Source: Oscillospiraceae bacterium
GTDB taxonomy: Bacteria; Bacillota; Clostridia; Oscillospirales; Ruminococcaceae
DNA: 64,000 nucleotides
Assembly (NCBI GenBank): GCA_017427265.1
Contig: JAFRTG010000046.1
Coordinates: 62,001-126,000 of the forward strand
Direction: 5' to 3'
The notes beneath the pieces were generated by a model. That model saw nothing but the letters and a program-made list of their open reading frames with translations, was not told the origin of the DNA and ran no database searches. A program made the translations under genes and the position numbers. Below are positions 3,049 to 64,000 of the stretch, piece by piece. The number at the start of each line of letters is the position of its first letter. The first letter of the stretch is position 1.

Positions 3049-5109
<2,061 letters not shown>

Positions 5110-56438: not shown

Positions 56439-57284
56439 ATGAAATACTGCCCGCACTGTGGTCTCCCCGTCCATAATAAACGCGCCGGAATCTGCGAGGA
56501 ATGCGGCAAACCGCTCTCCGGAAGCGCCCGCAGAAAAGAACAGCGCACAGCAGAATCGAAACCGCATGAGCCGCGGGATTTTGCAAGAGATATGCTCTCG
56601 AACTTTGAATCTGCTCACAATCGTCAGAAAAAAATGATGCGCAGATTCAAGGTCATTGCTGCTCTGATTACACTCGCGGCATGTCTGCTCATTGCCTATG
56701 CTGTTGTCAACATGACTTCGCATGTAAAGAACAGAAGAACAATCAGAGAACATGCCACAGAATATTCTGTGCCGGAATTTTCAATCCCGGAGTTTTCCAG
56801 ACCGGAGATCTCTGTTCCGGAATTCTCATGGCCGGATTCTGCGTTTCCTGCGCAGGATGCCCCCGTCATCCCCTCGCCCGGCGAACTCGACGGCGAAAGC
56901 CCTGTCAATCCGGACGGGACTTCCGGCGATACATCCGATGAAGCAGATGCGCTGCCCTATTCCGTCACGCTGACCGGACATGAGATGACAACCAATCTCT
57001 TCGGTGAGAATGTGCTTGTGCTCGATCTGGAATTCACCAACAACAGCAGTACTGCTGCATCCTTTTTCCAGACACTCACCGCAAAGGTCACGCAGAACGG
57101 TTCGCAGTGTATGCAGACCGCGGCCACCGTTGACCCGGCACTGACCGGCGTCAATACGGTTGAGCCCGGTGCTTCCTGCAAGGTGCAGCTGGCGTTCATT
57201 GCAGCCCCCGATACTGAAACGCAGATCACCGTCTCAACATGGCGCGGACAGCAGACCGTCATGGAAGAGAGCTTTACATCCTGA
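56439..57284 (+). CDS. Zinc-ribbon membrane protein with exported DUF5067-like domain
   Basis: 281 residues. The N-terminal zinc ribbon is CPHCGLPVHNKRAGICEECGKPL (about 4-27). After a basic stretch comes one helix (VIAALITLAACLLIAYAVV, about 70-89), then a five-residue repeat region of the type [SI]-P-E-F-S (VPEFSIPEFSRPEISVPEFS, about 107-128) and a Gly/Ser/Pro linker. The exported domain (about 170-281), LVLDLEFTNNSSTAASFFQTLTAKV, resembles DUF5067, seen on many Gram-positive lipoproteins. The function is unknown. A terminator follows. Confidence 0.77.
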   Translation: MKYCPHCGLPVHNKRAGICEECGKPLSGSARRKEQRTAESKPHEPRDFARDMLSNFESAHNRQKKMMRRFKVIAALITLAACLLIAYAVVNMTSHVKNRRTIREHATEYSVPEFSIPEFSRPEISVPEFSWPDSAFPAQDAPVIPSPGELDGESPVNPDGTSGDTSDEADALPYSVTLTGHEMTTNLFGENVLVLDLEFTNNSSTAASFFQTLTAKVTQNGSQCMQTAATVDPALTGVNTVEPGASCKVQLAFIAAPDTETQITVSTWRGQQTVMEESFTS

Positions 57285-57288
57285 ACCG

Positions 57289-57331
57289 AAAACACCCTTT
57301 CCGCATTTGCAGAAAGGGTGTATTTTTATAG
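57289..57331. terminator. Terminator between convergent genes
   Basis: ACACCCTTTC-cgcatttgca-GAAAGGGTGT followed by ATTTTTATA on the + strand. It can also act for the minus-strand gene ending at 57326. Confidence 0.85.
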
Positions 57332-57712
57332 GCTTCGTTTTTTGTGCAGCTTTTCCCTGAACGCCTGATACTGCTGCTTTGTTTTGATCCGTAGCGCCCT
57401 CCGCTTCCGGTCGATCATCGCAAGCGTCCGCGTATCTGACGGAAACAGTCTGCGCAGTATGAAAATCGCAAGCGGCAGCGTCAGCAGCTTTTCCGGCGTG
57501 CCCGGCAGCCAGAGCAGTCCGGCCCAGACCGTTCCTGCCTTCCAGAGCCATCCGATTCCAAGATATCCGCCGATGCCGATTGCACAGTATGCCCAGCCGT
57601 TTGTGATGAACCACGCAATTCCGACCGAAATCAGCAGGTGCGGATTTGTCAGCGCCCGTACCCACGGCCGCAGTTTTTCCCTGCATCCGGCCTTTGTGAT
57701 TTTGAATTTCAT
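57326..57712 (-). CDS. Small membrane protein of unknown function
   Basis: 128 residues with three or four helices between about 24 and 85 (LLISVGIAWFITNGWAYCAIGIG, YLGIGWLWKAGTVWAGLLWLP, KLLTLPLAIFILRRLF) and a basic tail (KRRALRIKTKQQYQAFREKLHKK). Proteins of this pattern, with the AWFITNGW motif, are known to me as common hypothetical proteins in Clostridia. AAGGAC precedes the ATG. A short transcript with its own terminator lies just upstream and may be its leader. Confidence 0.72.
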   Translation of the reverse strand: MKFKITKAGCREKLRPWVRALTNPHLLISVGIAWFITNGWAYCAIGIGGYLGIGWLWKAGTVWAGLLWLPGTPEKLLTLPLAIFILRRLFPSDTRTLAMIDRKRRALRIKTKQQYQAFREKLHKKRSL

Positions 57713-57754
57713 ATCTGTCCTTCTTCCCCCGCACTGCCGTCATCTGCAGCAATG

Positions 57755-57869
57755 AAAAAAAGCAGAGCAACTGCTCTGCTTTATAAATAAAATGAGGTCA
57801 AATCAAAATGTGTAGAACAAAAGAAAGGAGACAACAAAACGAGTGAAAATAACATTACATTATTTCACC
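57755..57869 (-). ncRNA. Candidate short transcript or attenuator leader
   Basis: On the minus strand a consensus promoter (next entry) would start a transcript near 57869, and it meets a GCAGAGCA/TGCTCTGC hairpin followed by seven T (57755-57782). The RNA would be about 115 nt. It could encode a 24-codon peptide starting MLFSLVLLSP. It ends 42 bases before the small membrane gene, so it may be an independent sRNA or a transcription attenuator. Confidence 0.5.
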
Positions 57870-57875
57870 GCCTTT

Positions 57876-57904
57876 ATTATACACGAAAAGCAGGAAAACG
57901 TCAA
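57876..57904 (-). promoter_or_regulatory. Minus-strand sigma-A promoter
   Basis: On the minus strand: TTGACG (57904-57899), 17-base spacer, TATAAT (57881-57876). It drives the short transcript above and perhaps the small membrane gene. Confidence 0.75.
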
Positions 57905-58057
57905 CCTTTTTTTCTCTTTTTCGCTGTTTTCAGACGGATTTTCGTGAATATATCCAAATTCAGGACGCGAATTTGCACATATTTGACAGCGGAAACAAGT
58001 ACAGTATCCGCTCTTTCGGCGGGATTCGTGAAAAATCATCGAAAATCCGGGAAGGGC
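57905..58057. other. Spacer between divergent promoters
   Basis: No gene recognised. AT-rich, with TTTTTTTCTCTTTTTCGC and AATATATCC stretches. It separates the minus-strand promoter from the PFOR promoter and could hold regulator sites that I cannot name. Confidence 0.4.
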
Positions 58058-58086
58058 TTTACTTTTTCACGTATTTGTGATATAAT
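58058..58086 (+). promoter_or_regulatory. Sigma-A promoter for PFOR
   Basis: TTTACT (58058-58063), 17-base spacer, TATAAT (58081-58086) with an extended -10 TG. Leader about 90 nt. Confidence 0.75.
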
Positions 58087-58183
58087 AGATAAGCGAAATT
58101 CTGTCCCGGAGCGAATGCGCTTCTGCGGCATTCCGGGCAGATTCCCAGCTCAATACTATACTATATAATGGAGGTACATTCTT

Positions 58184-61100
58184 ATGGCAATCGTTCGTAA
58201 GAAGAAGACGATGGACGGCAACAATGCTGCGGCATGGGTCTCCTACGCCTTCACGGAAGTCGCCGGTATCTACCCGATCACGCCTTCCAGCCCGATGGCC
58301 GACTACGTTGACCAGTGGTCTGCACAGGGCATGAAAAACATCTTCGGTACGACCGTTAAGGTTGAGGAGATGCAGTCTGAGGCGGGTGCTGCAGGTACGG
58401 TTCACGGCTCCCTGAATGCAGGTGCACTGACTACCACCTACACCGCTTCGCAGGGTCTGCTTCTCATGATCCCGAATATGTATAAAATTGCCGGTGAGCT
58501 GCTCCCGTGCGTGTTCCATGTTTCCGCACGCTGCGTCGCTTCCCATGCACTGAACATCTTCGGTGACCACTCCGACGTCTATGCATGTCGTCAGACCGGT
58601 TTCGCAATGCTCGCTGAAACCAACCCGCAGGAGGTCATGGATCTCGCTGCTGTTGCACATCTGGCTTCCATCAAGAGCCGTGTGCCGTTTATCAACTTCT
58701 TTGACGGCTTCCGTACCTCTCACGAGATCCAGAAGATCTCCATCTGGGATTATGAGGATCTCAAGGAAATGTGCGATATGGACGCTGTGCAGGCTTTCCG
58801 TCAGCGTGCTCTGAATCCGGAAGCTCCGGTTATGCGCGGTTCGCACGAAAACGGCGATATCTTCTTCCAGCACCGTGAAGCATGCAACTCCTACTACAAT
58901 GCTGTTCCGGCAATCGTTGAGGAGTACATGGACAAGGTCAACGCAAAGCTCGGCACCGATTACAAGCTGTTCAACTACTACGGCGCTGCTGATGCAGACC
59001 GCGTCATCGTTGCAATGGGCTCCATCTGCGACGTTGCTGAGGAAGTCATCGACTACCTGAACAAGAAGGGCGAGAAGGTCGGTATTGTCAAGGTTCGCCT
59101 GTTCCGTCCGTTCTCCGCTGAAAAGCTCGTTGAGGCAATTCCTGCTTCTGCAAAGACCATCGCTGTCCTTGACAGAACCAAGGAGCCGGGCTCTCTCGGT
59201 GAGCCGCTCTACCTCGACGTTGTTGCTGCTCTCAATGTGACCGGCAGAACCGGTATCAAGGTGATCGGCGGCCGCTACGGCCTCGGCTCCAAGGATACCC
59301 CGCCTGCATCCGTCTTTGCTGTCTATGCAGAGCTTGCGAAGGCAGAGCCGAAGCAGCAGTTCACCATCGGTATCGTGGACGATGTCACCAACCTCTCCCT
59401 CGCAGAAGAGGAAGCTCCGAACACCGCAGCTGAGGGCACCATCGAGTGCAAGTTCTGGGGTCTCGGCGGCGACGGTACCGTTGGCGCAAACAAGGACTCC
59501 ATCAAGATCATCGGCGACCACACCGATAAATACGTGCAGGCATACTTCCAGTATGACTCCAAGAAGACCGGCGGTATCACCATTTCGCACCTGCGCTTTG
59601 GTGACAAGCCGATCAAGAGCCCGTACTACATCAACAAGGCAGACTTCGTTGCATGTCACAACCCGTCTTATATCCTCAAGGGCTACAAGATGGTCAACGA
59701 CGTCAAGCCGGGCGGTGTGTTCCTCATCAACTGCCAGTGGAAGCCGGAGGAGCTCGATCAGCACCTCACCGCTGACACCAAGCAGTACATCGCAAAGAAC
59801 AACATCCAGCTCTATCTGGTGAACGCAATCGACCTCGCACAGGAGATCGGTCTGGGCAAGCGTACCAACACCATTCTCCAGTCTGCATTCTTCTCCCTCT
59901 CCAAGGTTCTGCCGGAGGCTGAGGCAATCGGCTACATGAAGGAGAAGGCTCAGAAGTTCATGAAGAAGGGCATCGAGATCGTTCAGATGAACGAGAAGGC
60001 GATCGACGCAGGCGCAAATGCTTACGTCAAGGTCGATGTTCCGGCTGAGTGGGCAAACGCTGTTGATAACGGCGCTGCTGCAAAGCTCGAAGGCCCGGAC
60101 AAGCTCGTCAAGATGGTTGACGGCATCATGAACCCGGTCGGCAAGATGCTCGGCGATACGCTGCCGGTTTCTGCATTCGCAGATCACGTTGACGGTACGT
60201 TCGAGCAGGGCGCTGCTGCATACGAGAAGCGCGGCGTTGCTGTTATGGTTCCGGAGTGGAACCCGGAGACCTGTGCAAAGTGTAACCGCTGCGCATTCGT
60301 CTGCCCGCACGCAACCATCCGTCCGTTCGCTCTGACCGACGCTGAGGCTGCTGCTGCTCCGTCCAACATCAAGCTCGCTCCGAAGCCGATTGTCAAGACC
60401 GAGTACAAGTACACCCTCGCTGTTTCTGCTATGGACTGCATGGGCTGCGGCGTCTGCATCGGCGTCTGCCCGACCAAGTCCCTCAAGATGGTTTCCAGAG
60501 AGTCTCAGGAACCGCAGCAGGCAGTGTTCGATTACTGTGTTGCAAAGGTCGAAGAGAAGGCAGACGTTGCAACCGACGCAACTGTCATCTCCAGCCAGTA
60601 CAAGAAGCCGCTGCTTGAGTTCTCCGGCTCCTGCGCAGGCTGCGCTGAGACCTCCTATGCACGTCTCATCACCCAGCTGTTCGGCTCCAGAATGTACGTT
60701 TCCAACGCAACCGGTTGTTCCTCCATCTGGGGCGGCCCGGCTGCAACCTCTCCGTACACCACCGATGCCAACGGCCACGGCCCGGCATGGGCAAACTCCC
60801 TGTTCGAGGACAATGCTGAGCACGGTCTCGGTATGTATCTCGGCCAGAAGGCAATCCGTGAGCGTCTGATCGACGAGATCAAGGAAGTCGCTGCAAACGA
60901 GAAGGCTTCCAACGAGCTCAAGACTGCTGCTCAGGCTTACCTCGATACCGTCAACGACGGCGCAAAGAACACCGAGGCAACTGCTGCTCTCGTTGCTGAG
61001 CTCGAAAAGTGCGCTGACAAGTGCGAGCTGAGCGCTGATATCGTTGCAAACAAGAACTACCTCTCCAAGAAGTCCGTCTGGATCTTCGGCGGCGACGGCT

Positions 61101-61717
61101 GGGCATATGACATCGGCTTCGGCGGTCTGGATCACGTTCTGGCAACCGGCGAGGATGTCAACATCATGGTCTTTGATACCGAGGTTTACTCCAACACCGG
61201 CGGTCAGGCTTCCAAGTCCTCTAACATCGGTCAGGTCGCACAGTTCGCTGCTGCAGGTAAGGCCATCGCTAAGAAGCGCCTTGCTGATATTGCAATGAGC
61301 TACGGCTACATCTATGTTGCACAGATCGCAATGGGTGCTGACATGAACCAGACCCTCAAGGCCATCAAGGAAGCTGAGAGCTATCCGGGCCCGTCCCTCA
61401 TCATCGGCTATGCACCGTGCGAAATGCACAGCATCAAGGGCGGTATGACCAACTGCCAGGCTGAGATGGAAAAGGCTGTCAAGTGCGGCTACTGGAACAA
61501 CTTCCGTTATGATCCGAGACTTGCTGCTGAGGGCAAGAACCCGTTCCAGCTGGATTCCAAGGCTCCGACCGAGTCTTATCAGGACTTCATCATGGGCGAG
61601 GCTCGTTACAGCGCTCTGACCCGTTCCTTCCCGGAGCGTGCAAAGGAGCTGTTCGAGAAGGCAGAAAAGACTGCTGAGGATCGTTACGCATACCTCACCA
61701 AGCTCGCTGACAAATAA
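58184..61717 (+). CDS. nifJ: Pyruvate:ferredoxin (flavodoxin) oxidoreductase
   Basis: Splits pyruvate with CoA into acetyl-CoA, CO2 and reduced ferredoxin, the central step of clostridial fermentation. 1177 residues, the normal single-chain length. Domain I begins with the pyruvate-site YPITPSSPMADYVDQW. The inserted ferredoxin domain carries two 4Fe-4S motifs, CAKCNRCAFVCPHA and CMGCGVCIGVCPTKS. The third cluster's cysteines are in GSCAGCAETSY and the TPP site in FGGDGWAYDIGFGGLDH, with NTGGQASKSS. Codon use is very biased (highly expressed). GGAGG precedes the ATG. Confidence 0.97.
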   Translation: MAIVRKKKTMDGNNAAAWVSYAFTEVAGIYPITPSSPMADYVDQWSAQGMKNIFGTTVKVEEMQSEAGAAGTVHGSLNAGALTTTYTASQGLLLMIPNMYKIAGELLPCVFHVSARCVASHALNIFGDHSDVYACRQTGFAMLAETNPQEVMDLAAVAHLASIKSRVPFINFFDGFRTSHEIQKISIWDYEDLKEMCDMDAVQAFRQRALNPEAPVMRGSHENGDIFFQHREACNSYYNAVPAIVEEYMDKVNAKLGTDYKLFNYYGAADADRVIVAMGSICDVAEEVIDYLNKKGEKVGIVKVRLFRPFSAEKLVEAIPASAKTIAVLDRTKEPGSLGEPLYLDVVAALNVTGRTGIKVIGGRYGLGSKDTPPASVFAVYAELAKAEPKQQFTIGIVDDVTNLSLAEEEAPNTAAEGTIECKFWGLGGDGTVGANKDSIKIIGDHTDKYVQAYFQYDSKKTGGITISHLRFGDKPIKSPYYINKADFVACHNPSYILKGYKMVNDVKPGGVFLINCQWKPEELDQHLTADTKQYIAKNNIQLYLVNAIDLAQEIGLGKRTNTILQSAFFSLSKVLPEAEAIGYMKEKAQKFMKKGIEIVQMNEKAIDAGANAYVKVDVPAEWANAVDNGAAAKLEGPDKLVKMVDGIMNPVGKMLGDTLPVSAFADHVDGTFEQGAAAYEKRGVAVMVPEWNPETCAKCNRCAFVCPHATIRPFALTDAEAAAAPSNIKLAPKPIVKTEYKYTLAVSAMDCMGCGVCIGVCPTKSLKMVSRESQEPQQAVFDYCVAKVEEKADVATDATVISSQYKKPLLEFSGSCAGCAETSYARLITQLFGSRMYVSNATGCSSIWGGPAATSPYTTDANGHGPAWANSLFEDNAEHGLGMYLGQKAIRERLIDEIKEVAANEKASNELKTAAQAYLDTVNDGAKNTEATAALVAELEKCADKCELSADIVANKNYLSKKSVWIFGGDGWAYDIGFGGLDHVLATGEDVNIMVFDTEVYSNTGGQASKSSNIGQVAQFAAAGKAIAKKRLADIAMSYGYIYVAQIAMGADMNQTLKAIKEAESYPGPSLIIGYAPCEMHSIKGGMTNCQAEMEKAVKCGYWNNFRYDPRLAAEGKNPFQLDSKAPTESYQDFIMGEARYSALTRSFPERAKELFEKAEKTAEDRYAYLTKLADK

Positions 61718-61737
61718 TTTCATTCTGAAATGACAAT

Positions 61738-61775
61738 CGCCCGCACGGTTCTGATGCCGTGCGGGCTTTGTTTTG
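61738..61775 (+). terminator. Intrinsic terminator after PFOR
   Basis: GCCCGCACGG-ttctgatg-CCGTGCGGGC followed by TTTGTTTT. Confidence 0.88.
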
Positions 61776-61803
61776 CTGCTGTTCGGCAGCGTGCAGAACT
61801 GAT

Positions 61804-61847
61804 ACAAAAAACCGGCAGTCTTGAGAATTACTCAAGCCTACCGGTTT
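61804..61847 (-). terminator. Intrinsic terminator of the carboxypeptidase gene
   Basis: On the minus strand: ACCGGTAGGCTTGAG-taatt-CTCAAGACTGCCGGT (two small mismatches) followed by TTTTT. Confidence 0.82.
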
Positions 61848-61871
61848 CTATTTCCTGCAGATTTGTGCGAC

Positions 61872-63020
61872 TCAATCCTCGTACTTGGATTCGATGCCGA
61901 AGTATTCCTCCAGACAAAGGCCGCTGTCATAGATCTTTTTGGCCCAGTCCTTGCCGACATAGCGAATATGCCACGACTCGTACATATAACCGGTCTTATC
62001 CTCTTTGCCCTTCGGGAAACGAATGATAAAGCCGTATTTCCAGCAGTTTTCTGCAAGCCACTTCGCTTCCGGCGTATTGTGGAACGCAGCGCCTGCGCAG
62101 TTCAGATCCATTGCAAGGCCGGTCTGGTGCTCCGAATGTCCCGGCCGCGCGGAGTACGTGTCAGCCTCTGCCTTGCCGTCACGATTGACATAGTTATGAT
62201 AAAGTGTATCCTGTTCTTCGTAACTCCGGAAACCTGATACGATCGTGTACGTGTAACCTGCATCAGCTCCGGCCTTTTCCAGCTCGTGAAATGCATCCAT
62301 CGTTTCCTTCGTCAGACCGCCCGGATTGTAGGTCTTCGGGAGCGCGTAGGTTTTGTTTGCAATCAGAATGCCGTGCACATAGGTTGCGCCGTCCTTCTCC
62401 TCAAGCCCGTCAACCTCTGCAGTATTCTTCGGTCTGGCGGTAGTCTGCGATGTTGCTGCAGTGGGTGCAGCTGTCGTTGCGGGGGCGTCCGGGTCTGCTA
62501 CGCGAACCGATACCTCCGCGAACACATCCGGGTTGTTGACAGACGTCACCTTAATGATACAGCTGCCTGCACCGACCGGTGTGATGCGGCCGATATCGTC
62601 AACCGTTGCGACACTCTTGTCTGAGGACTCCCACTTTTCCGATTTATCCTCTGCGTCCTCCGGGGTCATTGTGACGAGCGGCATGACGGTGTCGTCGCCG
62701 ACCTTCATGACAACTTCGGTGAAGGAGAGCGAAATGCCCGTGACCGATCCGGGCGGAAGGCTGCGCTGGGTCGTGGTGGTGGTTTCGGTCGTGGTGGTCA
62801 CCTCCGTGGTTACAGTCGTGCCGGGCTCTGTCTCGATCACAGAGGACTGCGCGGTGTTTTTCTCAGCGGCTGACCGGTCAAGGCCGGTCAGCACGAGCCA
62901 TGTGCCGCCGCAGACGCCTGCGACTGCAATCACTGTCAGCAGAAGCATCGGCAGAACAGATGATTTCTTTTTCTTTTTCCCGGCCGGTTTCCGGTTCGGA
63001 TTTTGTGCCTTTTCTGTCAT
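61872..63020 (-). CDS. VanY-type D-Ala-D-Ala carboxypeptidase with Ig-like domain
   Basis: Likely trims the terminal D-Ala of peptidoglycan peptides outside the cell. 382 residues from ATG 63020, chosen because AAAGGAA precedes it; ATG 63044 lacks a ribosome site. Basic N-terminus, one helix (LPMLLLTVIAVAGVCGGTWLVL), a Thr-rich linker, a bacterial Ig-like (Big2) domain (VTGISLSFTEVVMKVGD to VTSVNNPDVFAEVSVRV), a second Ala/Thr linker and the VanY domain. The zinc motifs are SEHQTGLAMDLN (His, Asp) and ESWHIRYVG (Glu, His). No van resistance operon is present. Confidence 0.9.
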   Translation of the reverse strand: MTEKAQNPNRKPAGKKKKKSSVLPMLLLTVIAVAGVCGGTWLVLTGLDRSAAEKNTAQSSVIETEPGTTVTTEVTTTTETTTTTQRSLPPGSVTGISLSFTEVVMKVGDDTVMPLVTMTPEDAEDKSEKWESSDKSVATVDDIGRITPVGAGSCIIKVTSVNNPDVFAEVSVRVADPDAPATTAAPTAATSQTTARPKNTAEVDGLEEKDGATYVHGILIANKTYALPKTYNPGGLTKETMDAFHELEKAGADAGYTYTIVSGFRSYEEQDTLYHNYVNRDGKAEADTYSARPGHSEHQTGLAMDLNCAGAAFHNTPEAKWLAENCWKYGFIIRFPKGKEDKTGYMYESWHIRYVGKDWAKKIYDSGLCLEEYFGIESKYED

Positions 63021-63101
63021 TTCGTGTTCCTTTCCGGTTTTCATACAGCATGGCTATACTTTGAACCTTTATTTGATGTGTACTGCAAACAGTACGCTAC
63101 T

Positions 63102-63130
63102 ATTATAGCACATTTTGCGGCATTTGTCAC
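63102..63130 (-). promoter_or_regulatory. Promoter of the carboxypeptidase gene with operator-like spacer
   Basis: On the minus strand: GTGACA (63130-63125), 17-base spacer, TATAAT (63107-63102). The spacer carries TAGCACATTTTGCGGCA (63106-63122), a version of the 17-mer found in the two promoters to the right. A separate inverted repeat GTACTG-caaa-CAGTAC lies at 63080-63095, downstream of the -10. Confidence 0.65.
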
Positions 63131-63165
63131 GGACAATTCTGCTTTTTTTGAATCTTTATAAAATT

Positions 63166-63402
63166 TTAATCTGTTGTATGAGACAGCACGGAATAGTGGC
63201 AGCGCTCTGCGGTCAGTCCGAGCAGATAGTCCACGTTCGTATGGTGGAATTCAGCCAGCGCGATCAGCACGGCCGTCGGGATGTCCCGCTGCCCCAGCTC
63301 ATAGTTGCTGTAAACCTGCTGCGAGCAGTGCAGATATTCCGCGACGTCGCGCTGCTTTAAGTCGGCGTCCTCCCGCAAATCCCGGATGCGATGATAAACC
63401 AT
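63166..63402 (-). CDS. XRE family transcriptional regulator
   Basis: 78 residues, little more than a Cro/CI-type helix-turn-helix: MVYHRIRDLREDADLKQRDVAEYL, CSQQVYSNYELGQRDIP (recognition helix SQQVYSNYE) and VLIALAEFHHTNVDYLLGL. ATG 63402 is chosen because AAGGAGG stands before it; the longer frame from 63444 starts inside the promoter. It probably binds the palindrome in its own upstream region and the similar sites in the two flanking promoters. Confidence 0.88.
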   Translation of the reverse strand: MVYHRIRDLREDADLKQRDVAEYLHCSQQVYSNYELGQRDIPTAVLIALAEFHHTNVDYLLGLTAERCHYSVLSHTTD

Positions 63403-63432
63403 ATTGAAATCCTCCTTTTTTCGGATGATTTC

Positions 63433-63458
63433 AATATAGCACACCGCATTTTGTTGTA
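63433..63458 (-). promoter_or_regulatory. Likely xre promoter with operator-like site
   Basis: Minus strand TATATT (63438-63433) with an extended -10 TG but no good -35. CACCGCATTTTGTTGTA (63442-63458) occupies the spacer and aligns at 13 of 17 positions with the site at 63551. Confidence 0.45.
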
Positions 63459-63463
63459 TGCTA

Positions 63464-63486
63464 GTTTACTGCATATTGCAGTAAAC
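63464..63486. promoter_or_regulatory. Perfect 23-bp palindrome, probable XRE operator
   Basis: Arms GTTTACTGCA and TGCAGTAAAC around TAT. It stands between the XRE gene and the divergent zinc-ribbon gene. The core TACTGCA-tat-TGCAGTA matches the 17-mer in the neighbouring promoters. Confidence 0.7.
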
Positions 63487-63542
63487 GGAGACACGCAAGC
63501 TGTCGGACTTGCACAAATTTTGTTTGTTTGTTGAATTATATA

Positions 63543-63571
63543 TTGACTTTTACTGCATTTTGCGGTATAAT
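63543..63571 (+). promoter_or_regulatory. Promoter of the zinc-ribbon gene with operator in the spacer
   Basis: TTGACT (63543-63548), 17-base spacer, TATAAT (63566-63571). The imperfect palindrome TACTGCA-ttt-TGCGGTA (63551-63567) fills the spacer, the classical place for a repressor. Confidence 0.75.
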
Positions 63572-63621
63572 AAAAGCAATAAATCGGAGGATGTTCTTCC
63601 GTGAGAAAGTGAGGTATGAAT

Positions 63622-64000
63622 ATGATGATTTGTAATCATTGCGGCCAGCAGGTTCAGGACGGAGCTGCACAATGCCCGTTTTGCGGTGCACCTTTGATGC
63701 AGCAGATGTATCAGCAAAATGCAGCGCCGAATCCACAGTTTGCGCCAAATATGAATGCGCCGCAGCAAGCGCCGAAGAAAAAACACGGCTGCCTCATTGC
63801 GGTTTTGGTTGTTGCCGGTCTCGGTTTTATCGGAATGCTTGGCGGTGCAGGGAAAACAAGGCAGAAGGATTCTGCTAAAGTTGAAGTGGAATCAAGCGAA
63901 GCGGCACCGGCGGAAAAGGACGCTGCCTCAGTTTCGGATGTTGATTCCGAGTCAACAGTGACAGAAGAAAGTTCAACGGAATCGAAAGATGAAAAGAATC
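63622..64000 (+). CDS. Zinc-ribbon membrane protein, cut off by the window end
   Basis: At least 126 residues, running off the right edge without a stop. The N-terminal zinc ribbon is CNHCGQQVQDGAAQCPFCGAPL, then a Gln/Asn/Pro-rich linker, one helix (HGCLIAVLVVAGLGFIGMLGG) and an acidic Ser/Glu-rich stretch. Same plan as the protein at 56439: ribbon, helix, linker, probably an exported domain. The start is one of three close ATGs (63616, 63622, 63625); GAGG at 63611 favours 63622. Likely repressed by the adjacent XRE protein. Confidence 0.75.
   Translation, partial: MMICNHCGQQVQDGAAQCPFCGAPLMQQMYQQNAAPNPQFAPNMNAPQQAPKKKHGCLIAVLVVAGLGFIGMLGGAGKTRQKDSAKVEVESSEAAPAEKDAASVSDVDSESTVTEESSTESKDEKN

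Follow-up and report, generated by a model that had tools for sequence, protein, structure and literature searches.

The locus around xre, a gene for a 78-residue helix-turn-helix protein, is probably a self-contained repressor divergon, in which the XRE protein would repress xre itself as well as the divergent gene, here one encoding a zinc-ribbon protein, through private operators. The operators are 17-bp palindromes of the consensus TACYGCA-NNN-TGCRGTA; these palindromes are genuine, and the two exact sites are far from chance. The original prediction, made from the 64,000-nucleotide stretch of DNA analyzed here (the window), had placed such palindromes in three promoter spacers, those of xre, of the zinc-ribbon gene, and of a gene for a VanY-type carboxypeptidase, and had read them as a small regulon that would connect the trimming of the cell wall with an envelope zinc-ribbon protein. 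The observation as a whole is partly confirmed and the interpretation as a whole partly supported. That is, the zinc-ribbon gene stands as a predicted target, with an operator filling its promoter spacer, but VanY does not, and since VanY is unsupported, the proposed regulon shrinks to the intergenic region between xre and the divergent gene.

The XRE protein and its operators in the window

Many small XRE genes of gut Clostridia are labeled merely "helix-turn-helix regulator." The xre protein of the window scores 45.5 bits against the Pfam family HTH_3 (PF01381), for which the gathering cutoff is 23, and thus carries an XRE/Cro-CI domain; a domain search returned no sensor or effector domain besides this single HTH_3. 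Against the model for the RstR family of repressors (NF041951), the score is 33.9 bits, below the cutoff of 80. Two solved structures are related to the protein, both distantly (7t8i and 9iaq). The features of the locus are collected in Table 1.

Table 1. Features of the xre locus and of the VanY gene in the window
Feature	Position	Strand	Remarks
xre, 78-aa solo helix-turn-helix protein	63166..63402	-	Pfam HTH_3, by domain search
Recognition helix of the xre protein, SQQVYSNYE	residues 27-35		
xre ribosome-binding site (RBS), GGAGGA	63410-63415	-	
xre -10 box, TATATT	63433..63438	-	extended by TG at 63440-63441; whole TGC-TATATT at 63433-63441
O2, xre-proximal operator, CACCGCATTTTGTTGTA	63442-63458	-	minus strand TACAACAAAATGCGGTG; 3 mismatches
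O1, perfect palindrome TACTGCA-tat-TGCAGTA, TACTGCATATTGCAGTA	63467-63483		0 mismatches to consensus
O3, exact operator, TACTGCATTTTGCGGTA	63551-63567		0 mismatches; 2 bases shared with the zinc-ribbon -10
Zinc-ribbon promoter, TTGACT-N17-TATAAT	63543..63571	+	TTGACT 63543-63548; TATAAT 63566-63571
Divergent zinc-ribbon gene, the predicted target; product with a single hydrophobic stretch and an FxLYD domain	63616..64000	+	runs past the window end
VanY promoter, GTGACA-N17-TATAAT	63102..63130	-	
VanY-promoter word, TAGCACATTTTGCGGCA	63106-63122		3 mismatches to consensus
VanY-type carboxypeptidase with Big_2 domain	61872..63044	-	own promoter, downstream of xre; judged outside the regulon

Re-reading of the window recovered all four palindromic words where they had been placed, including the perfect version, O1, between the xre and zinc-ribbon genes. 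O1 is 25 bp from O2 and 84 bp from O3. The 17-nt spacer of the zinc-ribbon promoter is occupied by O3, as had been described, and the divergent promoter thus has a third site of its own; the VanY word likewise overlaps the 17-nt spacer of its GTGACA/TATAAT pair. At xre, placement within a -35/-10 spacer is only half right: O2 ends 3 bp upstream of the extended -10 box, but no consensus -35 was found at the expected place, either in the window or in the aligned relatives. No RNA elements were detected in positions 57000-64000 at Rfam gathering scores.

In the 3.82-Mb genome, the exact operator TACYGCANNNTGCRGTA occurs in two copies, each of them in the region separating xre from the zinc-ribbon gene, and its reversed-pattern control in none. 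When one mismatch was allowed, 12 places were found, versus 1 with the pattern reversed. Each of the 10 places gained in this way lies within an open reading frame (ORF) of at least 90 aa, as do 577 of 600 random positions in the same stretches; they are therefore read as coding-sequence words, which accounts for the 12-versus-1 excess just in part. A wider regulon in this genome was rejected, every added one-mismatch place being intra-ORF. The genome scan proposed with the original prediction thus turned up no further intergenic copy of the operator, and the circuit therefore looks private, comprising the regulator, its own gene, and a neighbor.

At up to three mismatches, the window holds 17 places, 13 of them outside the locus, versus 5.45 expected, and none of 100 shuffles reached 17. 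Such words are frequent in the window and thus need other support. O2 is accepted despite its 3 mismatches because its 25-bp spacing to O1 is kept in relatives; the word at 63106, by contrast, has no support beyond the 3-mismatch match.

Conservation and layout in relatives

Loci in relatives were picked by protein similarity rather than by the DNA word, with the peptide patterns including part of the recognition helix. In the pattern-derived set, which consists of the best 80 of 308 loci, the closest named loci belong to MAGs, from rumen and gut, of uncultured members of Ruminococcus and Oscillospiraceae; for order-level xre matches, 30 loci and further retrieved loci were read. Below 60% identity fall 36 of the 37 phage-collection records and 34 of the 35 plasmid-collection records. 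A xre relative with the same helix, an exact O1, and the 25-bp partner was seen on a 387-kb circular element labeled as a plasmid (L333; Subdoligranulum, OY725846).

All eight genomes of the genus in which a close xre was found (E ≤ 1e-35) carry the exact site, as does 1 of the other 22, there inside an ORF. In the order as a whole, 13 of 147 genomes carry exact sites, 19 in total, 15 lying within ~300 bp of an xre match (E ≤ 1e-15) and the remaining 4 being intra-ORF. Exact copies away from the locus in relatives (G012, G089, G157, G093:C15, and G135:C104) were inside ORFs in five of five cases. The comparison of intergenic regions among relatives, also proposed at the outset, thus showed the sites between xre and the divergent gene to be conserved.

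For the count of operators by helix, 223 genes remained after duplicates and genes with less than 60 bp upstream had been dropped. Among the 88 nonredundant genes encoding the helix SQQVYSNYE, the 180 bp upstream contained an exact site in 80 cases, a site with one mismatch in 4, one with two mismatches in 2, and none in 2—that is, a site with at most two mismatches in 86 of 88, against a shuffled expectation of 0.05 per set (20 rounds). Of the two genes without a site, one (L103) has sites ~430 bp upstream, and the other (L107) is near a contig end. All-A/T spacers characterize 93 of the 94 exact sites in this set. Furthermore, of 81 anchored genes, 65 have a second site (at most 4 mismatches) at a distance of 25 bp and 8 have one at 24 bp, with other offsets from 17 to 60 seen in just 0–2 of the 81. 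Two sites at a constant distance thus share one intergenic region, the arrangement of a double-site divergon.

In the aligned relatives, O1 is followed by a GTCAA box, then by O2, and, after a gap of three bases, by the TATAAT of xre. Read in the opposite direction, GTCAA is part of the divergent -35, and the 17-bp spacer of that promoter contains O1. A TTGACA/TATAAT-like pair (at most 3 mismatches in total) spanning the operator and pointing away from xre, the same build as at the zinc-ribbon promoter, was present in 58 of the 88 same-helix loci, a count made without a shuffled control; the same scan gave no divergent promoter in 30 of the 88, which counts against the divergon reading. The layout in the genus of the window differs: O1 is not embedded in a divergent promoter, and the promoter spacer of the divergent gene instead holds an additional site, O3. 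A second exact or one-mismatch site resembling O3 was found in six of the eight close genomes and was absent in G008 and G016. In three relatives, a further exact operator lies 25–33 bp past O1 (L084, 2900-2916; L099, 837-853; L080, 2907-2923), which suggests longer operator arrays in some relatives.

Proposed mechanism

The simplest mechanism for such a divergon would be steric, with the repressor sitting in the divergent promoter spacer and against the xre -10 box. A dimer of the XRE protein would bind the 17-bp palindrome through its recognition helix. Occupation of O3 would then cover the spacer of the zinc-ribbon promoter and turn the gene off, and occupation of O2, beside the xre -10, would limit the protein's own synthesis. 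O1, which lies 25 bp upstream and is the better palindrome, would probably be occupied first and might assist the filling of O2. We infer dimer binding, repression, and this order of filling, with binding at the protein's own promoter drawn from co-occurrence and covariation. Repression might be relieved through the level of the protein, by proteolysis, or by an antirepressor, or the protein's own feedback might be all there is. Two further points weigh against the divergon reading: the divergent gene varies within the genus, and some helix classes gave no TA-ended palindrome.

A lambda-like dual action, in which the protein at O1 represses the divergent promoter and activates a weak xre promoter, with O2 filled and xre shut off only at high protein levels, so as to give a switch in place of plain feedback, appears rather unlikely, although several features would suit it. 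In the aligned relatives, the xre promoter combines a good -10 with the absence of a consensus -35, the divergent promoter is near consensus, and a better palindrome (O1) and a weaker one (O2) are fixed 25 bp apart. The activating lambda site is at about -42. Relative to the expected start of xre, however, the center of O1 is at about -49, more distant than that site, and extended -10 boxes could stand in for the -35.

Recognition helix and operator sequence

The operator changes with the recognition helix. Among 135 paralogues with other helices, the TACYGCA operator (at most 2 mismatches) was found in one, and this single exception (L073) shares an SQQV intergenic region as the divergent partner. 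In that locus (2667-2867), the divergent gene is itself a small XRE gene (helix SARTYAKYE), two regulators thus facing each other across one operator region. Another 17-bp palindrome with TA ends was found in 52 of the 135 other-helix genes, compared with a shuffled mean of 1.29, and was not found in 83 (for the helix SQTVYSRYE, in 0 of 11); TA ends were required by the scan, and their presence therefore proves nothing. The half-sites associated with individual helices include TAGGACA for DQSLYSKYE, TAGCGRA for SQRVYSNYE, TATCWCA for KQNTYSQYE, TAACCTG for SQTGYSKYE, and TAAGGSA for HQTTYSDYE. In three loci (L088, L094, and L109, the last two from Ruminococcus bromii; 3279-3306), a second paralogue with the helix DQSLYSKYE and TAGGACA operators lies next to xre, with a TACTGCATTTTGCGGTA site downstream of the first xre gene; the two genes possibly encode cross-wired mini-repressors.

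Correlations between helix residues and operator bases were sought in 67 helices and 243 genes, among which 28 distinct helices had a usable palindrome, SARTYAKYE (L073) and NIRTYGNYE (with an operator of the KQNT type) being kept. Residue 29 and base 3 share 1.02 bits, and residue 33 and base 5 share 1.26 bits, each matched in 0 of 500 shuffles, as was the tie of residue 29 to base 4; these shuffles are uncorrected for the 40 residue/base pairs and for shared ancestry. Weaker ties, of residue 29 to bases 5 and 6, residue 33 to base 4, and residue 27 to base 5, gave p values of 0.002–0.03, likewise uncorrected for 40 pairs. Positions 28, 29, and 33 are base-contacting in the 434 repressor, and the correlated positions 29 and 33 align with them.

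The individual rows are R29-G3 in 8 of 10 helices and N29-T3 in 3 of 3, and, for residue 33, D33-G5 in 4 of 4, R33-C5 in 6 of 6, Y33-A5 in 3 of 4, and Q33-T5 in 2 of 2, several of the helices being represented by one gene. N33 is split (G in 4, A in 3, T in 1), and K33, T29, and V29 are also without a single base. Kinship was handled by a matched-identity comparison alone, covering 49 genes and 26 helices with at most 4 genes per helix, SARTYAKYE and NIRTYGNYE being left out. With identity outside the helix matched, same-helix pairs have 0.90–1.00 of the variable half-site letters in common, versus 0.32–0.51 for different-helix pairs at up to 0.80 identity outside the helix; the two different-helix pairs above 0.80 identity are at 0.90. 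Helix residues thus correlate with bases beyond relatedness as matched in this way. The best plasmid-collection match, with the same helix, an exact site, and the 25-bp partner, and the best phage-collection match, with the helix SQVCYSNYE and without the exact site, were read afterwards and agreed with the link between helix and operator.

Parts of the operator thus appear to be readable from a few helix residues. The proposal that the sites suit a 78-residue Cro-like protein gains from their occurrence next to relatives of that protein, from the intra-ORF position of the five off-locus exact copies read, and from their variation with the recognition helix. That a different regulator binds the palindromes, with xre merely a frequent neighbor, is very improbable, given that, among proteins of matched overall identity, a different xre recognition helix goes with a different site, and given the ties of residues 29 and 33 to single bases.

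Divergent partner genes

The zinc-ribbon protein, as completed from the genome, has 332 aa counted from the ATG at 63622, and no solved relatives of it were found at E ≤ 1. The divergent gene differs among the eight close genomes, encoding a zinc ribbon in three (G000, G017, and G026), and 49 divergent proteins from the wider set fall into 27 similarity groups. By motif, a zinc ribbon is present in 11 of the 49, versus a baseline of 2 of 76; Pfam assignments for 48 of them (L084 being left out) gave Zn_Ribbon_1 in 12, BspA-type repeats in 4, and TM2 in 4. Counted by similarity group, zinc ribbons occur in only 2 of 27 (p 0.28), and the zinc ribbon is therefore a frequent rather than a defining partner; as a defining partner it was rejected. 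A hydrophobic segment was found in 39 of the 49 divergent proteins, versus 26 of 76 other ORFs, and in 21 of the 27 groups (p 1e-4). These counts come from a crude hydropathy rule applied to ORFs that were called mechanically and have an RBS-like word. "Envelope-type gene" sums up these partners fairly.

The variety of partners also bears on whether the locus could be a toxin-antitoxin module, with xre as an antitoxin-type autorepressor and the divergent gene as the toxin. Autoregulated XRE antitoxins with paired operators do exist, as described for Xre_2225 of Clostridium thermocellum in the portion of the source consulted (PMC8457756). A division of the 49 divergent proteins into 27 groups, most with a hydrophobic segment, nevertheless argues against a toxin, and the xre protein scores 18.9 bits against the MqsA-type antitoxin model TIGR03830, far under the cutoff of 61.8. 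A module of this kind is therefore very unlikely.

The VanY gene

Of the 30 genomes examined in the genus, 28 have a VanY match (E ≤ 1e-30). Among the seven relatives with a close xre, six have such a match, always on another contig or ~25 kb away, and none was found in G027. Among the 27 matched relatives, 17 have a GTGACA-N17-TATAAT promoter near the VanY start, a recurring element whose spacer sequence drifts (L162-L191); G017 and G019 of the 27 are without upstream sequence, and several starts come from partial alignments. The VanY upstream regions read contain no operator match better than 3 mismatches. In a few relatives, 3-mismatch words do occur upstream of VanY; one and the same word, for example, is present in L172 and L183 (G003 and G029), where it does not lie in the promoter spacer and where neither genome has a close xre. 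Upstream of VanY, G003 and G029 share a word resembling TTCCGCAAAATCCGGCA, which G021 has with one base different.

VanY as a target was rejected, given at least 3 mismatches in every upstream region read and its nonadjacent position in relatives. With matches this weak and VanY elsewhere in relatives, the word at 63106 is best taken as chance. The regulon first proposed, in which the protein also controls VanY and ties wall trimming to the zinc-ribbon protein, is thus most improbable: it could draw on the 3-mismatch match in the VanY promoter spacer and on the words upstream of VanY in some relatives, but no upstream match is better than this and 3-mismatch words are common in the window.

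Implications

Beyond the single divergon, and more tentatively, Clostridia might harbor a large set of solo mini-repressor cassettes that have their own 17-bp operators, are insulated from one another, are partly readable from residues 29 and 33, and are portable beside unrelated envelope-type genes. The specificity rows within this possible picture would be R29-G3, N29-T3, D33-G5, R33-C5, Q33-T5, and Y33-A5. The portable cassette would consist of O1, a TTGAC box, O2, a -10, and xre, and might provide private, feedback-controlled, and possibly bistable expression without a sensor domain. If the rules hold, the operators and controlled neighbors of small clostridial XRE genes would become predictable from sequence, and small, mutually insulated repressor/operator pairs would be available for anaerobe genetics. 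The role of a sensorless, self-limiting repressor for an envelope gene would also become testable.

Comparison with known systems

Among the papers searched, by operator string and by topic, none was found that describes this xre family or its operators. The kind of system, an autoregulated Cro/CI-type divergon with a recognition code, is already known. The lambda and 434 repressors belong to HTH_3, the Pfam family of the xre protein, and the 17-bp TA-ended palindrome resembles the lambda operators. Shared with the lambda/434-type Cro and CI proteins are the HTH_3 domain and palindromic operators overlapping divergent promoters. Unlike those repressors, the xre protein is a solo 78-aa protein with no further domain, and its gene lies beside mixed, mostly envelope-type genes with two operators 25 bp apart.

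For Cro, a recognition code relating helix residues to half-site bases has been described (Hall, Lefevre and Cordes, 2005, as cited in PMC4997575 and PMC5045206). Judging from these citing accounts, the type of rule is the same, with helix residues correlating with half-site bases, whereas the xre family is a different and mainly chromosomal one with its own rows (e.g., R29-G3, D33-G5, and R33-C5). In the LacI family, operators beside their own regulator revealed a two-residue, two-base code (PMC2978694); as far as the consulted part of that study goes, the approach from local autoregulation is the same, but the family is another, and the xre proteins are without a ligand domain.

In GntR divergons, a constant inter-site distance between the regulator and the divergent operon was read as cooperative control, and Arg-G and Asp-C were frequent among the predicted contacts (PMC4494728). 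These contacts would fit R33-C5 and D33-G5 on the assumption of contact with the opposite strand. The constant distance between two sites is likewise shared, but the regulator family is different, and the xre operator also fills a promoter spacer. The Xtr protein of Clostridium difficile, in the part of its description seen, binds a site unrelated to the xre operator. Xre_2225 of C. thermocellum has its two best sites in front of the operon to which it belongs, with scores well beyond those of other regulatory matches (PMC8457756). On the evidence of the excerpt consulted, it is likewise an XRE protein with two private operators, in its case belonging to a toxin-antitoxin operon and recognizing an 18-bp operator, TACATCnnnnnnGATGTA.
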